DNA of 64,000 bases from Tubulanus polymorphus (lineage: Eukaryota; Nemertea; Palaeonemertea; Tubulaniformes; Tubulanidae): contig NC_134028.1 of assembly GCF_964204645.1 (NCBI RefSeq), forward strand, positions 4,314,501 through 4,378,500. Direction: 5' to 3'. The position numbers and the translations under genes are program-made. A model generated the notes under the pieces. The model was given only the letters and a program-made list of their open reading frames with translations, had not been told where the DNA came from and did not search any database. Positions 11,254-53,320 of the stretch are shown in pieces; the first letter of the stretch is position 1, and the number at the start of each line of letters is the position of its first letter.

Positions 11254-14200
11254 TTACTTTTCTTGATGTCGAAGTCCAGAAGATTTTACTGATCTATTTG
11301 GTTGTCGTTTTCTGTGTTTATTTCGAATTTGAATGGATTTCATATCGATTGTTAGAATGGTGTAAAGAAGTGGGTTCAGAGTTGAGTTTATCGGTAAGAA
11401 AAGCACGGCCAGCCAAGCAGCAACCTGGTTCGGTATCTCGACTAAAAATATAGCGCAAAATTGAACAATTATTAGCGGCAACCAGCAAAATAAGTTAGAC
11501 AAATTTATGACCAAACTGCGTCGAGCTAGAACGAGTTCTGTAGGATCAGCTCTACCCGAACCGGACCTGCTTCCAGATACGTACTTGTATATCTGCATGT
11601 ACGACATCATTATCAGAGTGAGGATGATCGCGTTTAATACAGCGAATATAGCGAACGAATATTGCCAGCCATTGACATCTACAGATATAAGATTCATAGG
11701 TAAACAGACACCTGTGTTACCGTAAAAATCATCACCAAAATAAGACGAACGAGATAGCGGCAGAAAGGCAATCAAACTCAGGATTATCCAACATAAACAA
11801 GATAGAATCGAAATACTTGTTGAGGATACGAGCGAGTTGCCAGAAAATGGATCAAGGATATTTGAATATCTGAAACGCGTGAGCAGAAGGAGAAATGTTA
11901 AAGAGCCTTCACAAGATATCGTCACCACAATTCCGGCTAAACTACATAATGAACTACGAGTCCAAGTTTCAGAATTCATAAAATATACACCTTTATACAC
12001 GTAATCAGTTGCAGCGATCAGAAACAGATAAACAGACATCAGGAAATCACAAAGCGCGATATTAATGATGAGGATATCTGACGATCTATTTTGCGTTTCT
12101 GATGATGCTCGAATCGACCTAAAACGAAATAAGATAACATTAATATTGGAAACGAATGAAAAACAAGCGATGATCCAGATGACTGCTCTGAGAACAGTGT
12201 TATCAATGAGGTCTGAGCACGATGAAAATTGATCAGGATCCGGGAGACACCGGTCAATGTTGGGTACCATGCAGCAGAATTTATACGCGTCCGAAGCGAG
12301 AAAATATAACGATGTCAGATTATCGAAGATATTATTTTCCACAGAAATTATCCGAGAGTTGTTGGTAAAATCTAAAACTCCCAGAGACCTTAACCCAGAA
12401 AACGCGTATCTGGATATTGAATTGATCGCGTTACTGCTGACATTTAGATGTTTCAGCGCTGGTAAACCTCGGAATACGTTACGAGTAAGAACTGAAATGA
12501 AGAGACCGTGGAGATCGATAATCGGAAGTGATGTCAAACCATTGAAGCTACCATCGTTCAAATATCTCAGCGGATTTCCAGTGAGTAAAAGTTGTTTTAA
12601 ATTGTTTAAACCAGTGAATGTATTAGCTGGTAGTGAAACTAGGCGATTATACGACAGATCTAATGTATTTAGATTGCGTAGATTAGAAAACGCGTGGGAG
12701 ACAATGCCAGATAGATCATTGCGGGATATATTCAATATAAAAAGGTATAGAAAAGAGGAAAATGTCGATACATTAAATGAAACTCGGTTATTCGATAAAA
12801 TCAAAACTCGAGTCGACGCGGCAAAAATTCCAAAAATATCTGATAGAAAAGCATTTTTACAATCAATGAAACGACCTTGACATTTACAATATCTAGGACA
12901 CGTGACATCACAGTAAGCCTCGTCGTCCGAATTATGTTTACAGTTAACGACGCCATCGCAAACTTCCGACTGAGGTATACATCTATGTTCATCACCGCAT
13001 TTAAACATCCCTGGACACGAAAACGTTTCACAATTAAGTTCATCTTCTGAATGAGGACAATCTGATCGACCATCGCACACGTGTCTAATCGGTATACAGT
13101 AAGACGATGGACACTTCACTGTACCAACTGGACATTCAAACTCACTACAATGCAGTAAATGTTCGAGTCTTCTACAAACAGGAAAACCTGTCGACCTTCT
13201 TTCTAAAATACACCTATCTCTTCTCGCATAACAATGAGGAGAACTAAATGAACATCTTTGTTTATCTGATTCTGTACAGAGTGAAGTGAAATTGGCCGTG
13301 CAGTAGTTCTCTGTAGTGCATTGAACTTGTGGTTTAATTGTTATGTTGGTTGTTACTATTTCATCGTCTTCGAGGTCCCCACCACAATCTACAACGCCAT
13401 CCCGATACAACAGAGAACTGATACAATTGCCATTTACACACGAAAACCCGTTACATTTGTCTGAAGAGCAGCCGATCTCATCGGATTTATCTTCACAATC
13501 TACCAGTCCATCACACCGTTTGTATTTACCCATACATTGTCCATTGTTACAGGTAAACTGTTCAGATGAACATATATCATGATAGCACGAGTCCTCATCA
13601 GATCCGTCAGCGCAATCTCGTACAAAATCACATAACTTACTGACTGATATAACTCGTCCATCTAAACACTGGAACTGACTCAGTAAGTTAGAACCCGAAC
13701 AATCCAGTTCATCTTCACCGTGTTGACAGTCGTTTCTGGCATCACATACGCGATGGTCGCTGATACATCTTTGATCGTTGCATTGAAACTGCCACGATTT
13801 ACAACCGCTTACAGAGACTAACTCGTCACTTGTTACATTGTTGGAACATAGCACGGAATGCGCTTTATCTGTGACATTATTAAACGTCGTCACTGACCAT
13901 TTCACTGTTTTGGTATATGTTATCCAATCTTTAATTACAACTGGTTTTATTGCCACAGTTCTTCCGATTGTATCATGTGACAGTATAGCTCCATATTGAT
14001 ACTGATAATCGAAAACATTTATCCAATGCTGAACCGCAATATTAGATGTTATTATACCTATGTCACCGCCGATTTTAAGACACATTTCTCTGGCTGCCTG
14101 GATTGTGAGACTTTCAGTTTGGAGCGTTTGCCAGGCTGTAAGTATCTGATAGCAACGCGTTTCAATATGGACCCACCCTCTTAGACACGTGGAATTAAAT

Positions 14201-17200
14201 TGTTCAAAGTTGTTCCGTGCTATTTCAGTTGTATCGTTTTGTGAAGATGTATTAAAGTCGTTTCTTTCTGTTTCACAAATGAATGTTGCATGCGTTTGTA
14301 TGAGTTGACACGGGAATCGAACCCAGTTCGCTGATCCTCGTGGATTATTCAGTATCATCGCCGTACACGGCATATTGACGTCAGTTATTGGTTGTTTCTT
14401 TAACGGAGATATCAATCCTAGAATAACTTCTGGTATTGTGTCATTAACAGCGGGTGTGAACCATTCCGTGTAACTTAACGGGTTTCCATCAGACCACGAG
14501 TAATAACCACTGGACTCCTAAAAAAGTAATTTTAAAACATATCCGTTTTCTTCTATTTCTACTTCTTTCGAATCTCTTTTTGGAATAACTCTGCATCACG
14601 CAGTAAGAAAATTTATCATGATTTATCAAAATTTATCAAAATCATGATTTATCATGATTTTTCAAATTTCTATGAGATCGTTCATAAAACAGATATTTTA
14701 CCTGCCATTTCAATCCAATCATCACAATCAGTGCCACCTGCGAATACGCCTTGTGAAGCAATTTTGTAGCGAACAGCTTTTTCACGGCCCTCATTTCACC
14801 TTCAGAGTTGATACTGAGAAGATGTCCTCCATGTTTCTGTTGACAGTAAATTTCAGCGTTTTCCCAATTCAGACGTTCATGTTTGACATATTTAATGCAC
14901 GAGACACCAGAATCCAGAAAATCTGATCGGCAGCCATTAATTCGATGTTTCAGTAAAGGCGATTGTTCTAAAGTGTATTGAATTTGAAATATCGGACTAT
15001 AGGTTGACAGCTCAAAATGCACGTCATACCCGAGTAGACTGTGCAATACAAGTCCTGGTACCGCGTTATTTTCACATATTCTTGTTGTGTGACGGGTTTC
15101 CGTAAACTCGGAAAATAAACTATCGGGATTACGAAATATTTTGATGATTTGTGTAAGCAATATAAATTCTCTTATGCGGTAACTGATAGATTTAGAGCAT
15201 GATGTTTGTCCGATGGATTTAAACAGGAATCTGATGTAATGATTAATATTTTTGTCAGTAGAAAAAGAAAAGGCATAGAAGAATTTTGTTTCAGAATAGC
15301 CAGGAAATCCCGGGAAGTCGGGCGACTGCACGAGTCCGCAATAATCTACCTCGTTACTTGTGCTTCCACCTTCAAAACCTGGATTTTTTCGAAGTTTTCG
15401 TTTTAATTTCTGACATTTACGCCGTAATACAATTATTAGTGATGACCTCCAGAATTCATATTTAGTGTGCAATAATTTCACATGGTTTAATACGAGACTG
15501 GTATTTAGCACGTGACTATTGAGACTTATCGCTGAACAGAGATTCATAGCTCCGCGATAACAACCGTCAATTTGATATTCGTATTTTGATAATATATCTA
15601 TATTTTCTATCGGTAGACGTCGATTTTCAGGTGTAATCACTAGACAATGTGACGTCATTGTGATCTGACGTTCACCCGCCCGTAGAACATACCCGTCGCA
15701 GTCAGTTGGAAATAGGTTGAGGGCGCCAGTCAATAGTTTATCATCCCAGTTGTAAGCGTACGTTACTACAGTAACCGGTCCTCCTGATGTAATCAGACTG
15801 GCGACGTTACGACTGTATCTATAACCAGGACAATACGGACCATAGCGTCTAGCTGTAAAATTACCACCATCATATATATAAAATCCAGCTCTCTCGCACG
15901 TCTCTGATAAGACTGTAAATGATAATTTATTTTCATAGATGTCGACTCTCGAGCTGAGTGGAAGTCTAACGATACGATAAGAAAACCTCCGTTTCGAGTA
16001 TCTGGGGGACAGATAATAATGCGATATTGAACGTCCATTTGATACCTACAATGATACAAACATGAAATCGATCATCAGTATAAATCGATGTATTATGCCT
16101 AACTTTCCACTACCATTTTACCGCAATATACAGCGACTTCGCAGTTGAAGGGTTAATGATTTATGTTAGTTTTTATTGACAAATTACGATTTATATATAT
16201 TGTGCATATTAGTTCATCGCTGTAAAAACAAACTCAATACAGTAAATTCATGGCTTTTTTAATTTGCCATTTACTCACTTTTCTATTTTCAACTTTGAAG
16301 TCTGTTTTCTTCATTGATTCTATTTTGTACTCAACCATGTTTGAATTCCGGAACGATTTTCCGACGGAATTCTCTAATAACAGTAAACACAATGTCACGA
16401 AAAATCCGTCAGATTTTGCACTTAAAAATTCGAGATGGTTTTTACTGAGTAAAATATCAGTTCCGACAATCGCCAGTCCTTCCTGTTTATAAACACCGAT
16501 GACGTCACCGGAAGCGATCAGATCACGGGTCCAGTTGAAGACGATGTATTGCAGTATATCAGCTGTGATAGACCAGCAGTATAAGCGTTTAGACTGAGTT
16601 ATTACGTGCGGCCTATCACCAGGAAGGAGAACTCCGGATTTGTTTTTATAGATCGGAATCGATGGATTAGAAATATTCCAATCTGATATTCTATACAGTT
16701 TTACAAATAGATTTGTTTTGAGTATTGATCCGGCCTGTTTCATTGAAAAAGTGAGAATAGCTTCGTTAGTTTTCGTGTAAACGGAGGTGGGCGGATGTCC
16801 GGTTTGTTCTTGTATATTCATTAAAGGTTCACTTGTGTTCCAAACGTCATAAATCCGAAAAGCCACATGTAAACCTGGTTGTCTTGATCTTAAGTCAACT
16901 TTCTCGAAAGTCAAATTCATGCCAAAACCCTTTGGTATTCCGGACCACTCTAGCCAGAGAAGGCGACAACTTGACATGTAGATAGCGAATTTGTAACCAG
17001 TTTTCAAATGTTTTAATTGTGTTATTGTCTTTGAGTAACAGTCGTGAAATGTTCTCAGGCGATCGCGTTCTTCCTCAAAATGATAAGATACATAGATTCG
17101 ACTTCCTTTTACAACATTTACATCACTGTTAAACGTCAACGATAATGAATTGCTGCGGTAAATATCTAATTGTTTTCCATCGCCGCACAGTAAGTTATCA

Positions 17201-17505
17201 GAATCACTGATGTGAACGTAGTTATCTCTACAGAATAATGACGGCTCGATGTCGTAGTAAACTTGGATGTGAAAGGTACCCGGTAAAGAGCTGTTGATGA
17301 ACCAATGACATTCAACATCGCGCGTAAACGAAGGATAATTCGGTGAAAAGATGTAACCAGACGTAGAATCGAGTGAAAACCACGTATTGTTACACCGTGT
17401 ACTGACAGTTACAGACGGTTGATCGGTAGAGATCCAATCAGTCGTCTGAACCGACGACAGTTTCATTGGAAGAATGAGCAATAACGTTAATAGACAACGT
17501 ATCAT
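11254..17505 (-). CDS. GRL101-like 7TM receptor with CUB, C-type lectin, LDLa and LRR ectodomain
   Basis: Three coding exons, 17505-16279, 16045-14702 and 14517-11254, join in phase 0 (GTGAGT and GTAAAA donors, TTGTAG and TTTTAG acceptors) to give about 1,944 aa. I start at the second ATG because it opens directly on a signal peptide (MIRCLLTLLLILP); an upstream in-frame ATG lies at 17556. Order: CUB (about 45-165); further CUB-like segments to about 740; C-type lectin domain split by intron 2 (about 800-940); a second lectin-like domain (about 965-1085); six LDLa repeats, some lacking the full acidic SDE box (about 1096-1395); a cysteine-flanked LRR block of about six repeats (about 1397-1625); a rhodopsin-like 7TM (about 1640-1920). 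TM6 has CWLP, TM7 has NPLLY, and the DRY site reads TRF. The closest known form is the snail receptor GRL101, related to relaxin-type LGRs. Ligand and G protein cannot be read from sequence. Confidence 0.9.
14609..14661. repeat. Short TTTATCA-rich repeat in receptor intron 2
   Basis: Overlapping copies of TTTATCATGATTTATCA and TTTATCAAAA, close to the 3' end of receptor exon 2. Confidence 0.7.
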
Positions 17506-18006
17506 GTTGGCGTTCTCGGTCAGTCCATGGACTAGTCTATCTAATCTAATGTACATGTTTATAACAGTTTGACCCTAACCACTGCGATTAGATAGCGAGT
17601 AGAGGAAGACTTTTCAGATTTCATGATGCCGCGAGCAATGTATCGACCATCCGTTGAGTTCAGACTACACGGCGCTCATTAAAATGTAATTCAATAATCT
17701 ACGAAACTGCATTGATGATTAACGAGATTTAAACGAAATGTTAAAAAGATTTAATGCGATATTTGATGCTGAGTCAGATTTAATACGCTTGCGGTGTAGA
17801 AGGTCTAGAAATGCATACTACATTCGTCTCCTCTACTCGATCCGTGACCCAAAACTGACCAGGCAGAACTTGCGTCTCACGTAGAAATGCAAGCTCTGAA
17901 ATCATCAACGGTAGTTCAGATAATTTGCGGAATAATCAAAATAACAAGATTAAGTCTAATGAAAGAAAATGAAGCTGGATGTATCAAAAATATGTGCACA
18001 ACTCTT
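17506..18006. other. Receptor 5' flank / protease 3' flank
   Basis: The gap between the protease poly(A) signal and the receptor start holds no other gene. The promoter of the receptor must lie here or in the protease 3' end. I could not identify a convincing TATA box or initiator. Confidence 0.6.
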
Positions 18007-18246: not shown

Positions 18247-21200
18247 TTAATGGCGTAAATAGGAAGTTATCCAGTTCAGATGATACGTAACTCTAGCGAA
18301 AACACTCGGGTGTCGTGGAGCTAGGCAGCCTTTCGGGCCGAAACTGACCACACCGACCTGCACGTAACGCTTCGTATCTGACCTATAGTAAACTAATGGT
18401 CCACCAGAATCACCCTGCAACAGAATGCAATACCATATAAAATGGATTGAATTAATATTCATGAAGTATAAGTTATTTTGTACGATTATGTATTTACCGA
18501 GCAAGCTGCTTTGCCTTCAGCCTCATAACCGGCGCAAAGCATGTCATTCTTTATAAACCCGTTATACCAGGACGGTCCGTTACATTTCTGATTGTTGATG
18601 TACTGCAGTTTCACCTGGTTCAACACTGTCCGATCACCCGTTCCTAAAATAAAAGAGTGCATAAACAAATACGAAAATGATTGTAATGTCGTGTAAAATT
18701 TCAATCCACGTTTGTGGCCAATGTACGGAGCCCCGGAGGACACGGTGAAAATCTTTTTCGAAATAATTTTTTCGTTCGAACGAAAAAATAAATTATTTTT
18801 CACCGTGTCACCTCCGGAGCTCCGTATATACCGATGAGTTCAAACGTAATGAAATATAGCATTTAGCTATTACCTTTCGTATTACCCCAACCAGACAGGG
18901 CTAGATCTGCTCCTGTTGGTAAGGCAAATGGTGGTGGTGCTAATGCAGACGCTGGTCTAGGGGGCAAACATACTGGTATTATAGCAGGGGTGAAGGTCAC
19001 CGGTGCTGAAAGACGTAACATGGCTACATCATTCTCGATCGTATCACCCTTGTAACTCGGATGGCGAAAAATTCGTTGAACTCCGACGGTTATTCCAGAC
19101 GCTTCAGCTACGGTTAATCGATGCCTTCCGAGTAGAACCTTAAAGTTCTGTGGTAGGTGCTCGCTGCAAGAAAAATGTGTCAATTGATCTGAAAATACCA
19201 GCGTAACCATTATCTCTCTTCAAAGCCATGTCTTTGTGCTTTCATTCTTGAGATCAAAACGTAGGGCTAAACATTTTATTGGATTTAATCGTCAAGGCAG
19301 ACGATACTCACTTGCCGACGACACAATGAGCTGCAGTCAGCACCCAACGGTTGTTCAGTAAACTCCCTCCACAAACTAAAGCCTGGTTCCTGAAGAGTAA
19401 ACCCGCTTGCCACGGAAAACTATGCGGTTTCGCTTCACGCCCTCCAACTATTCGAGTTTCTAACGGTTTTACGAACGGCTTACCGCATTCTGTGTGATAC
19501 ATGCAAGAAATTAAACGATAGTGAAATACCCGATATTTAAACGTTTTTCTTTAAGGCAATTCATCGTATACTTACGTATATGGGAACACGCATGAAGGTC
19601 ATCTCTTCCTGGGCAATGGGCTGATCCTTTGCACAAGCTCGTAAATGGAACGCATGTGGCTTGGTTGCGACAAAGATAAGTATCACCGGAACAAAACTCT
19701 ATTGCTGAAACTATGAGAACCATATTCCATTAAATCGTTATATAGTTTATTCATTTTCCCTTTCAGAGAAATCTCCATAATTATTCATACCTTGTTTGAA
19801 TGCAATCTTAAAACCGGTTTTACGGATATTGCGATCGGTGATAAATTTGACGAGCATTTCGGATTGAGTCGAAGCCACCGTGATGACTGGGTTTTCATTA
19901 CCACAGAATTTTCCAAGTTCAGGACGAGACGGTATCATATCTACCAGTGATAACAAATCGTAAGGACAATCGGTACCGGTTCCAGCTTCTAGGTCCATCG
20001 ATAAAAATTTCATTTCTATCACCTAAAATGATATATAGATTTTTGTATAACAGTATTGAATGGGTATATTAACAATTGCTTGACTTGGATGATTCTAATT
20101 CTTGCCTTTCCCGGTGCTGCTCTTAATAACCAGCTACATTGTAATCCCCCGGCATACAGCGAGCTCCCATCATAACCAGGGGAACTCAGTTGCTGATAGG
20201 TGTCTACAGCTGTCAAAACTAGGGGACCATTAGCGCATGCGTCCGGTGTTGATGTAGGTGTCACTGTCGTTAAACCACCTCCGATTTGCAGCGGAACTAT
20301 GAAATTGAAAGGTTACGTAATTGATAGATATCGCCGCAAGGAAAAGCGACTTGCTAAAAGACGATTTGGCACAACAGTACCTGCTCCTGACACCTGACTT
20401 ATCCAAGAAACGTGGTCTGAAATACTGGAATAAACGCCGGGTCTACGAGCGTCAGCGCAGTTAGTCCCCCAGCTTACCACACCTATCAGTACAAATCGAT
20501 CCATTTCTTCGATATATTGGACCAAAGGTCCACCGGAATCACCCTGAAATAGACGTTGGATCTTCAATAAAAGTGTCCTGGTTTAAAAAATCGTTACCAT
20601 CTTATTTCTGAATAACAGGGTGATTTTACCTGGCAGGAGTCTTTCTGTCCCCACTCGTACCCAGCGCATAACATGTCGGATGTAATTCTACCGTCATACC
20701 ACAATTCACCATTGCACGTAGTATGGTTGATGAATGGTACCTCTACCTGGTTCAGAACGTTACTACTTCCTGAATCTACCATATACATATAAAACAACCT
20801 AGTTACTAAGATATACGATGCTCAACCCTTTCAGTGCTGACTTATTAATACCCTATAGTGCTGGAGAAAATTTGAAAATTTTAAAAAATTCCACCCTAGT
20901 GTGTTGAACAATGGGAATACCACTATAGTGCGTCTACACCGCAGTGCGGTGTATCGTTAGTTACTTGTATTTCACTATGTTTGACACTTTCTGCCATTTA
21001 TCAATAGAGATAATTGCAAATTACTAATTACATCAATACACCGCAGTGCGGTGTACTAGCAAAAATCCATCACTGATTTATACACCGCACTGCGGTGTAG
21101 ACACACTGTAAGATACTATATGAATATCTAACAGAATACAAATCTTCTTACTCTGTGTGTCACCCCATCCTACAGTTATGAGACTGGTGCCGGTGGATAA

Positions 21201-23469
21201 AGTGTGGTCCGCCGGTGCGAGACAGGCTGGACTGATTCCCGGAGAGAAAGGTGTGATTGGATGAACAAGTTTCAACAGCGCCAGATCATGAGCTACCGAT
21301 GACGGATTGAACGAAGGATGCACGATTACAGACTGAACGCCAACTAATATCGCTCCATGTTCATTGGGATCCGATAGACTGTGTTTACCTAGGTATACTG
21401 TCAAAATACCAGGAGTTCCAGAACTGGAAATATATGAATTCATATGCTTAATTTTAATGAATGACCAAATAAGGACGTATTTGCATAAGTTAAGATATTC
21501 ATCTCTTGTACAAACCTGTCAAAGACGCAATGAGCGGCCGTCAAGATCCACTCACTAGTGACCAAAGTAGCCCCACAAATATGACTATTCTTTTGCATTA
21601 ACGAGGCTGTCCAAGGCCAACTATGAGGCACGGCCTCTTTACCACCAACAATACGATAATCTACAGGTTTTATCAAAGGTCTACCACATTCTGCGGAAGA
21701 TCCCATGGTCAAACAGTTTGAAATACCATTATAGATATCGAAGAAAAAATGAAGGGAAAGTTAAGATGTACCTATGTTTTCACACGCCAACTGGTCTTCC
21801 TTGTTCGGACAATGAGGAGTGTCAGGGTCGCATAGTTCGTTGTACGCGACGCAACTGAAGTCAGACGCTTTCGAACCGGGACACATAAAATCATGAGCTA
21901 AACAAGGTTCCTTTGGACCTAAAATCAAAGTCATCAATCTATCACGTGGAATGGAAATATTTTGGATCGAATACGATATTTTGGTAATTTGACAACGAAA
22001 TTACCTTGGTAGAAATCTAACTGAAACCCAGTCCCACCGACAATATGGTCTGATTTGAATCTTACGTATGCGTGTTGACTGGTCGTAGATATTTTGGAAT
22101 CGGGCGTAGTTCGGCCGCAGAATCTAGCCAGAAGTTTCGATTTGCTGGACGCACCATTGTACAGGCCAATCCAATCATAATTACACGAGGAATGAGGTTC
22201 TGTGTTTAAATGGTGGAGTTGCATATAGACGACCTAACGAAAATGGCACAAGTTGATTCCTATATAAGAAACTAGCTATAACGATGGTATTATCTCTGTG
22301 AGATATTTCAATATTTATCAACCGATTCATTACCTGACTGGGATCTGCTTGGAGAATCCATCCACAATCGAGATTATTCGAATATTCGTCTATACCGTTA
22401 TAATTCGGAGATGATAGTCGTTGAGGGCTGGTGGTAACTTTAATTCGACCGGGTCCTTTGATGCTACACGGATCTCCGACGACGATCGCAGGTTGGGGCG
22501 CACTAGTAGGGCGGACTGTGGATGAACTAGGTGGTGGTGAGGAAGAAATAGAAGTGGTCACAGGAGTCATTGTTGTAGTTGGCTTTCTCGTGGAGGTCGT
22601 TAACATAGTTGTTGCAGTTGTGGTGGGACCTAGAAGATATAAGAATCTCAAAAAGTACAGAATTTTTAAATGAATTTCTAAATGATGTATTTGATTTCGA
22701 GTATTTACCCAGAAGAGGAACACTTTTCACATTGATGACGTAACCTTTTCGGTTTATGGCGGCATCTGTTTGAAAGACGACGGAAATCTGTCGCCCAGGA
22801 GACGTCACAGGAGTAGGGACTCGGTATCCACACATACGGCCAGTAACCTGAGTGTCGGTATCAGTATAGATGGCGAGAAAGTCGTAGTTGCATTCTCCAT
22901 TTGTCGAGCCATCTTCGAGTTCGAATTTCAGGAATTCAATTCGCAGCTACAACGATTCGAAATGCGAATTTGAAAACGAATATCATTTATAATGGAAGCC
23001 TTGTAAACGGAGTGTGGCGTACCTGGAATGCTGGAGCAGTTGTTACAGTCGTGTTACTATAAAAGTTTGCCGGATAGTCCCATCGTCCCCAATTCGGGGA
23101 TTTTAACTCGAGTTTGCTCAAAGGTTCTATCCATTTCGCAGTGGTCACCGTAGTTGGGAGGTACGGGCGCCTCTTTACTTTATGGAATTGTATACAAAGA
23201 AGCATAATCTTCATTTTCAAATTATAGAATTAGTAATACCATTATATTCTCGATGAAAAAGTCTTGTATAAGAAAAACGTATATCATATCATCATAAGCC
23301 ATTGAAATTCATCTAACCATATTGAATATGATGATAATCAACACGTTGCAAGACCCAAAAAAGGCTCCGCGTTAGCTGTACATGCGTTTAGGAAATACCT
23401 ACCTATACTTGGAGAAGCAACCAGACTTGACACCGTAGTTAGAAGCAGGTAGACTACGACACCGTTCAT
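18247..23469 (-). CDS. Secreted CUB-LDLa-trypsin polyprotease (two S1 domains)
   Basis: Seventeen exons rebuilt by hand: 23469-23403, 23177-23023, 22946-22709, 22629-22334, 22233-22005, 21918-21772, 21690-21516, 21423-21152, 20775-20630, 20543-20381, 20296-20106, 20022-19791, 19710-19576, 19489-19312, 19163-18874, 18643-18498, 18414-18247. All phases agree (3,228 nt, 1,075 aa). Signal peptide (1-18); CUB1, with its first cysteine pair missing (about 23-153); Thr/Ser/Pro linker (about 154-200); CUB2 (about 203-328); LDLa1 (329-377); S1 domain 1 (378-629) with R-IVGG, TAAHC, AHDLALL and DSCQGDSGG; CUB3 (about 645-770); LDLa2 (771-815); S1 domain 2 (816-1075) with R-IVGG, TAAHC, ENDVAML and GDSGG. 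Both triads are complete. Domain 1 has Asp189 and should cut after Lys/Arg; domain 2 has Ala189. Nearest known types are ovochymase- and enteropeptidase-like proteases. Intron 11 uses a GC donor. Substrate unknown. Confidence 0.9.
18724..18826. repeat. 103-bp near-perfect palindrome in protease intron 15
   Basis: TACGGAGCCCCGGAGG at the left is mirrored by CCTCCGGAGCTCCGTA at the right. The inner arms (ACACGGTGAAAA / TTTTTCACCGTGT) and the centre TTTTTTCGTTCGAACGAAAA pair as well. This is the form of a hairpin MITE or fold-back element lying between exons 18874 and 18643. Confidence 0.8.
20926..21107. mobile_element. MITE-like element with 22-bp perfect terminal inverted repeats
   Basis: GTCTACACCGCAGTGCGGTG starts the left end (20932-20953). 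Its 22-bp exact inverse is at 21081-21102. A third copy of the inner TACACCGCAGTGCGGTGTA lies at 21037-21055. Each copy is itself nearly palindromic. It sits in protease intron 8. Partly repeated CTATAGTG motifs from about 20817 onward suggest a larger, older element around it. No transposase is present. Confidence 0.75.
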
Positions 23470-49920: not shown

Positions 49921-52900
49921 AGTTTAAAACAGTTTACAGTTTACAGTTTATTTGACAAACTCAAGGTCTACAAATTAGACAATATGAGTGAAAAATAGAA
50001 CATTATACAAAATAACATAGCAGCGAATGCCGTGTTTACACAAATATTTTAGCAATTTTACTTATAAAGATACATAAATTATAAAGTGTTCTGATGTTTT
50101 TTGTCTGCATAAGGGAGGAGAATTTATACTGGTTTGGATAAATTGAAAATTTTCTCTCAATGTACTTGGTCCTTAAAACGTCAAGGGTTGGACAACATAA
50201 TATATAATGATATTCGTCCCCTATAGCACTGTTGCAAAGAGGACAGGTCCTGTTTTCTCTGGGTACTTTCATCCATCTACCAGTTTCAATTGGAAGTTTG
50301 TGGTTACACGTTCTAAATCTACTTAAACTATATAGCAGGTCATCAGGAATGTCCGACGTGTAAATAAACTCCAGGCTATGATTATCTTTGAATAGAGAGT
50401 AATAGTCACCTTTAGGTGATTCCCTTATGGATGCTCTCCATTCTTGGAGGAACTGGTCCATTATTTTTTGTTTTAAAGTAGATTGCAGCCATCTAGTGTT
50501 TGGGAAGGATTGATCATCCCATATATTGTTTAAACCTACAGAATACAGAATATCTTTTACATTTCTAATCCATTTGAAATTTGGAGCTATGCCGTTAATG
50601 TAAAAAGGTCGCATAACTGATTTATACAGAATGCTAGAGAGTTTGTTCTGAGAACTGACTAAATTAGCCCAAAAGGAGACAATTCTAGATTTAATTACTA
50701 TAGAAAGGGGGAATCTACCAGTTTCTCCGTACAACATGAACGTTGGTGTACTATTTCGCGCTTTCAGTACGTGTCTCAGAAAACTTAAGTGAACAGACTC
50801 AATAGAATCTATGTTAGAGAACCCCCAGACTTCACAGCCATATAATAAGACGGGTACCACCGTCTGATCAAATAGTTTTAACTGACAATCTAGAGGAAGA
50901 TTTAGACTATAAGTCTTACAGTATAGAGCGTGTAGTGCCTTTTTTGCTTGTGAGACTAGGTATTTCTTAGTCGACAAAAAACCTCTATTTTGATGTAATA
51001 ATAATCCCAGGTACTTATAGCTGGTAACAACCTCAATATTTTGATTTCCCATGTGGAACTGTTCATTTCCTAAGCCTCTAGAACCAAATATTATAATCTT
51101 TGTTTTTCTAGTATTGACCTTTAGTTTCCATACATTGCAGTATTCATGGAAATTATCTAGGTTGCGCTGAAGTTCTTGCGCATTCTGCGCAAAAATTACC
51201 GTATCGTCCGCGTAGAATAGAATTACCAAGTTTGCATAAACGATGACATCGTTATGATCGGACAAACTGATCCCATTACTGGCTCTATTATGTAAAAATT
51301 CTTCTAAGTCGTTTAAGTACAGGCAGAAAAGAAGCGGTGACATATTTTCACCTTGTCTGACACCTGTCTCACAAGGAAAAAAGGCAGATAGGTTACCATT
51401 AGCTTTCACACATGATTTAACATTGTCATACATGTTCTTCACACAGTTAAGTAATTTACCGTTTATACCATTTGTAAGAAGCTTTTGCCATAGTCCGGCT
51501 CTCCAGACTGTGTCAAAGGCTTTGGTAAAATCTACGAAAGCACAATATAGTTTCTTCTTCTGAGTTTTAATAACTTCAGCTAAAATATGTAAAATGTAGA
51601 GGTTGTCAATTGTCGAGTAACCACGACGAAATCCGGCTTGGTTGTTATGGAGGATGTTGTTTGTTTCAATATAACATGTTAGTCTATTATTAAGTATTGC
51701 TGTAAAAACCTTTCCCAAACAGCTTAAAATGGTGATGGGCCTGTAGTTCTCTGGTAGTTTGTCATTTCCACCTTTAAAGATGGGACAAATGACGCCCTCT
51801 AGCCAAGATTCTGGGAGTATCCCAGTATCTAAAACGATATTAAAGAAGTTTACATAAACTGGGAGCATGATATCCTTAGTGGCTTTTATATGTTCGTTTA
51901 GGATGCCATCACTTCCAGCTGATTTACCATTTTTGAGTAGTTTAATTGCCTTTAAAATTTCCTCCGCAGATATAGCATCATTTAGTGACTCGTTTTCATT
52001 GATCATATCATTTGCTACATTAGGTAATTCTGATCTATCATCTTGCTGCTTATTGGCATCCCGGAAAAATTCATACAAGTCCTCCAGTGGTACTGGAATA
52101 TTAGTGTTTCTAGGGGTGTTTCTGTTTAAAAGCTGCCAGTATTTTTTAGGGTTATGAAGATTAAGGTTTCGAATTTCTCTTTGCATACGCTTTCTGTGTA
52201 AATTCACGTGCTTTCTTATAGTTTTTTTATAACTACGACTGGCTTCGGCAAGATCTGTATGAGTACGGTCGGTTCGAATCCGATTATTAATGCGCTTCTT
52301 AATATGGTACTTTTTCCTTGCATTTCGACATTCATGACCAAACCATGGTTTATCTAGTTTATTAACTTTTGAGGGACAGGGAGAATTCCATTTGTTACCA
52401 AAGGTAATAATACTGGCGTCATTGAATATTTCATTTATAACAGATGATAAGGAATCGATTGCATCTTTATCAAGTACATGCGGGTAAGATAGTAGTGTTT
52501 GTTCGTACTTTTGGGTATTCAAATTGCTAGCAAATTGGTCTGATTTATCTCTTTTCCAAGTTGGCCTATGTTTTACTTTTCGTGTAACTGGCCGTTCATT
52601 GCCTTTATATGGGGTAGGTGGGATACCACTGAGTTTTAGGTTGAAAGAAATAGTACAGTGCACATCGGAGAATAGGTCACAGAAATCATGCACAAAAAAG
52701 TCACACAAAAAATTAAAGCAATTCGGCGAAAGGACTACATAATCGACTACAGACGCGTTTTTGCAAGTTAATTTACCTAATCTACGATCTTTACCGAGTC
52801 GACCGTTTGCTATATAGAGATTACAATTCTTACATAAATCTAAGAGTTTGTGGCCATGGTTATTCACATACTGATCTTGGCTGATACGATCAACTGGAAT

Positions 52901-53320
52901 ATTGAACTGGAAAATTTCGGGCAAGTAATTGGTATTGTTCAAATTGAGTCTTTGCGTCAGGAACTCATCTGGTTCAACAAAGTCGGTAAAATTGCTAGTT
53001 CTTGAGTTGAAGTCACCCATTAGGATTACTGACTCATAATTAGATTGCATTGATATAATTTCGAGTTCAATGTCCGTCCAGCATTCAGGGGTTAGGTATT
53101 TTGAGCCCTCGGGCGGGATGTAGCACATACCGACGCATACGTCACTCGTTGAGTTAGGGAAAAGCTGTTTTGACACTTTAAACCATAGTATGTATTCTGA
53201 TTTAATAGGTAAGACCGTAACACATTCAATGATCGAATCGTGCACAAGGACGGCTATTCCACCAGACACTCTTTTGTACTTTTTACGATTGTTACCAAAG
53301 AAGTGCTATACTCACAACCG
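49921..53320 (-). mobile_element. Non-LTR retrotransposon (LINE), 5'-incomplete
   Basis: It carries the endonuclease-RT frame described separately, a short 3' UTR and a 3' tail of about three TGTAAAC heptamers (49924-49950). The 5' boundary is unclear because the N-terminal part of the endonuclease is missing or decayed beyond 53305. It lies in the proposed SYT15 intron 1 in the same orientation as the gene. Confidence 0.85.
50036..53305 (-). CDS. LINE ORF2: endonuclease/exonuclease/phosphatase plus reverse transcriptase
   Basis: This is a single open frame of about 1,090 codons without stops. N-terminal part of an AP-type endonuclease: SGGIAVLVHD, then GDFNSRTSNF (the GDFN motif), then SDVHC near the domain end. 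The segment before SGGI, which would carry the QET catalytic motif, is absent; the frame closes at a TAG at 53308-53306. Reverse transcriptase (about 430-760): AGSDGI, AFVDFTKAFDTVW, GVRQGENMSPLLF and the catalytic FYADDT. A C-terminal CPLCN-x-GDEYHYI-CCP knuckle follows. This layout and the absence of an RNase H domain fit the CR1/L2/Jockey-like group; I do not assign a clade. An intact frame suggests fairly recent insertion, but the 5' loss makes this copy inactive. Confidence 0.88.
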   Translation of the reverse strand, partial: HFFGNNRKKYKRVSGGIAVLVHDSIIECVTVLPIKSEYILWFKVSKQLFPNSTSDVCVGMCYIPPEGSKYLTPECWTDIELEIISMQSNYESVILMGDFNSRTSNFTDFVEPDEFLTQRLNLNNTNYLPEIFQFNIPVDRISQDQYVNNHGHKLLDLCKNCNLYIANGRLGKDRRLGKLTCKNASVVDYVVLSPNCFNFLCDFFVHDFCDLFSDVHCTISFNLKLSGIPPTPYKGNERPVTRKVKHRPTWKRDKSDQFASNLNTQKYEQTLLSYPHVLDKDAIDSLSSVINEIFNDASIITFGNKWNSPCPSKVNKLDKPWFGHECRNARKKYHIKKRINNRIRTDRTHTDLAEASRSYKKTIRKHVNLHRKRMQREIRNLNLHNPKKYWQLLNRNTPRNTNIPVPLEDLYEFFRDANKQQDDRSELPNVANDMINENESLNDAISAEEILKAIKLLKNGKSAGSDGILNEHIKATKDIMLPVYVNFFNIVLDTGILPESWLEGVICPIFKGGNDKLPENYRPITILSCLGKVFTAILNNRLTCYIETNNILHNNQAGFRRGYSTIDNLYILHILAEVIKTQKKKLYCAFVDFTKAFDTVWRAGLWQKLLTNGINGKLLNCVKNMYDNVKSCVKANGNLSAFFPCETGVRQGENMSPLLFCLYLNDLEEFLHNRASNGISLSDHNDVIVYANLVILFYADDTVIFAQNAQELQRNLDNFHEYCNVWKLKVNTRKTKIIIFGSRGLGNEQFHMGNQNIEVVTSYKYLGLLLHQNRGFLSTKKYLVSQAKKALHALYCKTYSLNLPLDCQLKLFDQTVVPVLLYGCEVWGFSNIDSIESVHLSFLRHVLKARNSTPTFMLYGETGRFPLSIVIKSRIVSFWANLVSSQNKLSSILYKSVMRPFYINGIAPNFKWIRNVKDILYSVGLNNIWDDQSFPNTRWLQSTLKQKIMDQFLQEWRASIRESPKGDYYSLFKDNHSLEFIYTSDIPDDLLYSLSRFRTCNHKLPIETGRWMKVPRENRTCPLCNSAIGDEYHYILCCPTLDVLRTKYIERKFSIYPNQYKFSSLMQTKNIRTLYNLCIFISKIAKIFV

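Follow-up and report, generated by a model that had tools for sequence, protein, structure and literature searches.

A gene with two related CUB-LDLa-like-S1 modules: a candidate two-headed S1 protease zymogen

The window analysed here is a stretch of 64,000 nucleotides (contig C4, 4314501-4378500) from an assembly of 267.8 Mb in 77 contigs, which judging from its genes belongs to an animal, and the gene in question lies on its minus strand between positions 23469 and 18247. Joined by their splice signals and reading frames, 17 exons encode 1,075 residues with no internal stop. The encoded order is a signal peptide, a first CUB domain (CUB1), a Thr/Ser/Pro-rich linker, CUB2, an LDLa-like domain, a first S1 protease domain (S1-1), a short linker, CUB3, a second LDLa-like domain and a second S1 domain (S1-2) that runs to the stop codon. 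Run on the whole protein, Pfam recognises the three CUB and the two trypsin domains and misses both LDLa-like exons. The exons are, in window coordinates:

23403-23469, minus strand: exon 1, start codon and signal peptide, by eye and from hydropathy
23023-23177, minus strand: exon 2, first half of CUB1, which lacks the first cysteine pair (CUB1 in Pfam, 2.4e-16)
22709-22946, minus strand: exon 3, second half of CUB1, phase 0 in and 1 out
22334-22629, minus strand: exon 4, Thr/Ser/Pro-rich linker and first half of CUB2, phase 1 in and 0 out
22005-22233, minus strand: exon 5, second half of CUB2, phase 0 in and 1 out
21772-21918, minus strand: exon 6, LDLa-like domain 1 with six cysteines, phase 1 in and 1 out (Pfam 16.9 bits)
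21516-21690, minus strand: exon 7, S1-1 with activation site R/IVGG and His57, phase 1 in and 2 out
21152-21423, minus strand: exon 8, S1-1 with Asp102, phase 2 in and 1 out
20630-20775, minus strand: exon 9, S1-1 with Asp189, phase 1 in and 0 out
20381-20543, minus strand: exon 10, S1-1 with Ser195, no stop codon close to where the S1 ends, continues into CUB3 by a phase 1 donor
20106-20296, minus strand: exon 11, linker and first half of CUB3, GC donor (alternative GT donor at 20085)
19791-20022, minus strand: exon 12, second half of CUB3, phase 0 in and 1 out
19576-19710, minus strand: exon 13, LDLa-like domain 2, phase 1 in and 1 out (Pfam 16.2 bits)
19312-19489, minus strand: exon 14, S1-2 with activation site R/IVGG and His57, phase 1 in and 2 out
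18874-19163, minus strand: exon 15, S1-2 with Asp102, phase 2 in and 1 out
18498-18643, minus strand: exon 16, S1-2 with Ala189, phase 1 in and 0 out
18247-18414, minus strand: exon 17, S1-2 with Ser195, Gly216, Ser226 and the stop codon

For exon 11 the donor is probably the GC at 20106. The GT at 20085 would lengthen CUB3 by seven residues with the frame kept, and the GC is favoured because these seven residues would be an insertion relative to the other aligned CUB domains; with this donor not all introns of the gene are GT-AG. Two introns carry repeats of their own: the 376-base intron between exons 8 and 9 holds a palindrome-like word (acaccgcagtgcggtgta or a near variant, by eye) three times between 20934 and 21101, and the intron between exons 15 and 16 holds a long inverted repeat (18724-18828) whose arms measure roughly 45 bases by eye and which resembles a small mobile element.

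The border between S1-1 and CUB3 bears on whether these exons form one gene or two. The gap there is an 84-base intron flanked by phase 1 borders, exon 11 has no Met codon in its open frame, and exon 10 has no stop close to the end of S1-1, and because of these three features a single gene is, on sequence grounds, much more likely than two. Among 50 S1 loci fetched from outside the window, 42 have an in-frame stop at most nine codons from the S1 end, two of which (L012 and L043) also have a donor-like word nearby. The other eight comprise three that are cut short or incomplete (L022, L048 and L050), four with longer tails (L025, L032, L033 and L038) and L001, which runs into a CUB domain; it is the only one of the 50 seen to pass via a phase 1 donor into CUB, the seven others being incomplete or unfollowed. 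This locus (contig C1, 163001-173000; the C1 paralogue below) encodes CUB-CUB-LDLa-S1-CUB and then a stop, with phases that by eye are those of the window gene, and Pfam scores its LDLa domain at 40.8 bits and its CUB domains at 64.4, 73.0 and 28.4 bits against a cut-off of 21.4; its first exon was not found. Two repeat arrays were seen at the same locus: the intron that separates the LDLa exon from the His exon holds one with a unit of about 22 bases (L001 6820-7180), and downstream of the gene units of about 76 bases stand in tandem (L001 3200-3750).

Submitted on their own, the two LDLa-like exons of the window gene score 16.9 and 16.2 bits, below the Pfam PF00057 cut-off of 24.1. Both domains retain six cysteines, and by eye the acidic calcium loop is altered in both, the calcium ligands of domain 1 being mostly changed. 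We take them as worn LDLa domains because the domain in the equivalent place of the C1 paralogue passes Pfam.

The initial annotation had read this gene as an internal tandem duplication of a CUB-LDLa-S1 module that carried whole exons and preserved their intron phases. Recomputed from the sequence, the leaving phases that it gave (1, 1, 2, 1, 0, then the Ser exon) are the same in both modules, and its exon lengths of 147/135, 175/178, 272/290 and 146/146 are exact. The exons that it listed, from the second CUB half onwards, do repeat, and so does the exon in front of them, which encodes the first half of the CUB (22629-22334 and 20296-20106); the repeat thus starts there. In each module the leaving phases run 0 for the first CUB half, 1 for the second, 1 for the LDLa exon, 2 for the His exon, 1 for the Asp exon and 0 for the next, followed by the Ser exon. 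The gene itself extends upstream of the repeat, to a start at 23469 with the signal peptide and a further CUB. A splice-aware profile aligner places the S1 introns of both modules at identical profile positions (46, 135 and 181, in phases 2, 1 and 0).

Chance is excluded as the source of the likeness between the modules. The local alignment of S1-1 with S1-2 scores 557 against a shuffled mean of 32 (z 106), and the same comparison with shuffled controls gives z 16 for the LDLa domain plus linker and z 30 for CUB2 with CUB3. Over 409 aligned codons the modules are 41.3% identical (S1 47.0%, CUB 33.9%, LDLa plus linker 33.9%). By codon position the identity is 55.7, 62.1 and 33.7% for positions 1, 2 and 3, and of 79 shared fourfold sites 18 agree, matching chance (0.26). 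As the fourfold sites agree at chance level while positions 1 and 2 stay high, the comparison indicates that the duplication is old and that both copies have been kept under constraint.

The intron phase pattern of the kallikreins was our motive for testing phases across the genome. No intron phases are given in the available part of PMC2967472. Of 43 S1 loci, 30 have a phase 2 intron at profile positions 44-48, a phase 1 intron at 133-141 and a phase 0 intron at 181; these loci are the first 43 fetched, and their S1 models came from the aligner automatically and without locus-by-locus curation. Exactly these three introns and no others occur in nine of the 43, and the C1 paralogue is one more if its GC donor is read by eye. 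Shared phases are therefore ruled out as proof of an internal duplication, since two S1 genes picked anywhere in this genome would probably agree in their phases. The phase 1 flanks found on every CUB, LDLa and S1 block would allow these blocks to be shuffled or duplicated with the frame intact, and say nothing more. What stands of the proposed module duplication is one gene with two related modules bounded by exon borders of the same phase; the argument from phases falls away.

The sequences of the S1 domains are more telling. Trees were built from 45 rows (43 loci plus S1-1 and S1-2) and again from 49 rows after four more domains were added, three of the seven later loci (L048-L050) being dropped as their stretch was too short. 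Both trees place S1-1, S1-2 and the S1 of the C1 paralogue in one clade, with support of 100/96 in the first and 100/95 in the second, and all three domains lack the cysteine pair 136-201, which among the 45 rows is otherwise missing in full only from L009 and L011. In pair scores, for which each window S1 was set against 48 others (49 S1 domains compared), each of S1-1 and S1-2 finds its best match in the other, at a score of 557 and 47.4% identity. The case that would have counted against a duplication, a module nearer to some other single-domain gene than to its partner, was thus not found. The margin in identity is small, however, since the next best match of S1-1 is L037 (475, 45.7%) and that of S1-2 is the C1 paralogue (457, 45.6%). 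A point that speaks against the three-member clade is that the C1 paralogue (410) trails both L037 and L002 (445) in its score with S1-1, so that the clade rests on the tree and on the lost cysteine pair. Support for joining S1-1 with S1-2 inside the clade is 94/70 with 45 rows and weakens to 88/54 with 49, and when the LDLa domains are added to a 15-row S1 tree the three-way fork between S1-1, S1-2 and the C1 S1 persists. We think it most likely that the second LDLa-S1 arose by duplication in a small family to which the C1 paralogue also belongs.

The C1 paralogue shares the rare S1-to-CUB junction of the window gene, and hence the common ancestor of both genes probably had it. From such an ancestor two routes lead to the present genes: gain of a second LDLa-S1, in the window gene, downstream of a CUB that was already there, or loss of one in the C1 gene. 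On account of this junction CUB3 may predate the second LDLa-S1. An account that we put somewhat short of an even chance is that only the five LDLa-S1 exons were copied behind a pre-existing CUB, in an ancestor with the CUB-CUB-LDLa-S1-CUB order of the C1 gene, CUB3 then being the counterpart of the last C1 CUB. The C1 gene matches the window gene by eye in order and phases up to CUB3, and it alone of the 50 outside loci was seen to continue into a CUB, 42 of them stopping within nine codons. A tree of nine CUB domains likewise pairs CUB3 with the last CUB of the C1 gene (67/74), and for the LDLa domain plus linker the two window modules score higher with each other (114) than in other pairs (80 and 89). 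However, that CUB tree is weak, with no starred branch, a grouping of CUB2 with CUB3 is not rejected (p 0.257), and CUB2 with CUB3 scores 166, the best of the 11 pairs tried with the CUBs of both genes, against 93 for CUB3 with the last C1 CUB. The share of the CUB in the proposed module duplication is therefore unproven.

Possible, but in our view doubtful, is that the double module is ancient and that the C1 gene is a copy which lost its last LDLa-S1. Trees that group the C1 S1 with S1-1 (p 0.425; 0.355 with 49 rows; 0.085 with LDLa added) or with S1-2 (p 0.454; 0.519 with 49 rows; 0.252 with LDLa added) are not rejected, and with 49 rows the tree that joins S1-2 to the C1 S1 even beats the free tree by 0.29 log units. 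S1-2 is also the best match of the C1 S1, and the C1 gene stops just past its last CUB, at the place where other CUB exons splice on. Against such a loss, the free trees unite S1-1 with S1-2, and there is no trypsin match downstream of the C1 gene (contig C1, 163-168 kb) among the matches listed.

The duplication proposed in the initial annotation, in which the whole CUB-LDLa-S1 module was copied in tandem within the window gene after its split from the C1 gene, we regard as unlikely: the union of S1-1 with S1-2 in the free trees and the CUB2-CUB3 pair score agree with it, but it would need an independent origin of the S1-CUB junction of the C1 gene, and the CUB tree does not group CUB2 with CUB3. 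That two adjacent separate genes were misread as one is very improbable, as the whole gap between them would be the 84-base phase 1 intron, as exon 11 lacks a Met in its frame and exon 10 a stop near the S1 end, unlike 42 of the 50 other S1 loci, and as the C1 gene has the same S1-to-CUB junction.

His57, Asp102 and Ser195 are intact in both S1 domains and an Arg precedes IVGG in both. Each also has Cys122 and a cysteine ahead of the activation site, a pair that in known relatives keeps the activated S1 tied to its own linker. The pockets differ: that of S1-1 (D189, G216, G226) is trypsin-like by its residues and that of S1-2 (A189, G216, S226) is not, the latter being one that we take, by general pocket rules, to suit hydrophobic or small residues. 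Among the solved structures nearest by sequence (the best 60 of 533 and 529), plasminogen comes top for both heads. The best 60 for S1-1 include hepsin, TMPRSS2, matriptase, enteropeptidase and plasma kallikrein, and those for S1-2 include TMPRSS11D, hepsin, enteropeptidase, an elastase (1bru), chymotrypsins and trypsins, the elastase and the chymotrypsins being absent from the best 60 for S1-1. The specificity suggested for head 2 has to be weighed against the trypsins that stand among its listed relatives, which makes the structural relatives weak support, and against the reliance of the pocket reading on such general rules.

On balance, and with only a little more confidence than doubt, we read the product of the gene as one of the polyserases (polypeptidases), secreted as a zymogen with two S1 protease heads. 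In such a protein the CUB domains would bind targets or hold oligomers together, and the LDLa-like domains would act as disulphide-held spacers, not as calcium-dependent binders. Head 1, with its D189, G216 and G226, would cut after Arg or Lys, and head 2, with A189, G216 and S226, would prefer large hydrophobic or small uncharged residues. The zymogen would be opened first at head 1, which could then activate head 2, in its own chain or in a molecule beside it, because the activation site of head 2 has Arg as its last residue. Both heads would stay tied by their disulphides after activation, and one binding event would bring two cutting specificities to one spot. We hold it rather unlikely that all of this forms a self-contained cascade in one chain, in which a trypsin-like head 1 activates a chymotrypsin- or elastase-like head 2 that is a duplicate from the same family, with CUB arms and LDLa domains turned spacers. 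Both triads and both Arg-ended sites are kept and the pockets have diverged, which makes a cis-acting two-step protease a testable idea.

The known kinds that come nearest are the polyserases, ovochymase, Nudel, schistosome SmSP1 and matriptase. A polyserase or polypeptidase is defined by at least two S1 domains in one reading frame, and the spliced model has two trypsin domains in its frame. MASP, C1r and C1s have the order CUB-EGF-CUB-CCP-CCP-S1, and Pfam finds no EGF or sushi domain in the window protein. Matriptase (ST14) has a membrane anchor and a SEA domain; in the window protein Pfam finds no SEA and the signal peptide is the only strongly hydrophobic stretch, as 19-residue stretches with a hydropathy above 1.6 are confined to it and none above 1.5 occurs elsewhere. 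The published descriptions below are taken from the available parts of the papers cited, and what they name or leave unnamed refers to those parts. The matriptase order of CUB, then LDLa, then S1 (PMC3967958) is that of each window module and of the C1 paralogue, but matriptase has several LDLa domains, against one LDLa-like domain per S1 and two S1 domains here. SmSP1 of Schistosoma mansoni has the same module order with one LDLa domain but in a single module, and its full product was detected in eggs only (PMC3967958). Nudel resembles the window protein in having two S1 domains that each follow LDLa (PMC11172050); its order, however, is LDL(2)-SP-LDL(2)-SPH-LDL(3), no CUB is named and the second protease domain is a homologue without the triad, whereas the window protein has one LDLa-like domain per S1, three CUB domains and both triads intact. 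Mealworm polypeptidases other than Nudel use sushi domains (PMC11172050). HrOvochymase is likewise a secreted chain with several S1 and CUB domains, but it is ordered S1-CUB2-S1-CUB3-S1, with S1 first, a third S1 without the triad and no LDLa named (PMC9265791). The window protein starts with CUB, has a single CUB between its S1 domains and an LDLa-like exon before each S1, which bears out the earlier suggestion that its arrangement is not that of an ovochymase. Polyserase-1, -2 and -3 share the tandem S1 domains in one chain, polyserase-1 with LDLa and two active domains, but CUB goes unmentioned, polyserase-1 is membrane bound and polyserase-2 has one active domain only (PMC1435904).

An extra S1 domain without triad or activity is found in HrOvochymase, Nudel, most mealworm polypeptidases and polyserase-2 (PMC9265791, PMC11172050, PMC1435904). 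Nematostella proteins with several trypsin domains are termed polyphyletic in tree legends (PMC6767649), whereas the two S1 domains of the window gene share one clade. In a syllid worm three transcripts named as ovochymases have fewer domains than the ascidian protein, and one of them was grouped by the authors with a mollusc chymotrypsin (PMC6350857). A keyword search of the open-licence literature, in the parts of the papers available, gave no named CUB-LDLa-S1-CUB-LDLa-S1 protein. What is new in the gene is the arrangement, the kind of enzyme being well known, and it does not amount to a new kind of system: beyond its two heads it is ordinary exon shuffling in a large, well-known family, and the single-headed C1 paralogue is a natural counterpart in which to see how moves of phase 1 exon blocks add a second head.

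Other loci with related domains came to light alongside the S1 genes. At L002 (1750-5205, minus strand; contig C4 at 26.69 Mb) a gene encodes at least three CUB domains, an LDLa domain well above the cut-off (50.9 bits) and a single S1 domain in which the 136-201 cysteine pair is present, and at L020 (135-275) a small cysteine-rich exon upstream of the S1 is clip-type-like by eye. Within the window, the next gene downstream (11254-17574, minus strand) comprises three open frames with a CUB domain, five LDLa stretches, leucine-rich repeats and a 7-transmembrane receptor, the LDLa, leucine-rich and receptor parts sharing one long open frame; a C-type lectin match in it reaches 20.3 bits, slightly below the cut-off of 22.6, and the gene closely resembles the snail receptor GRL101. 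Further along, at 50036-53305 on the minus strand, an open frame of 1,089 residues resembles by eye the endonuclease and reverse transcriptase (YADD motif) of a long interspersed nuclear element.

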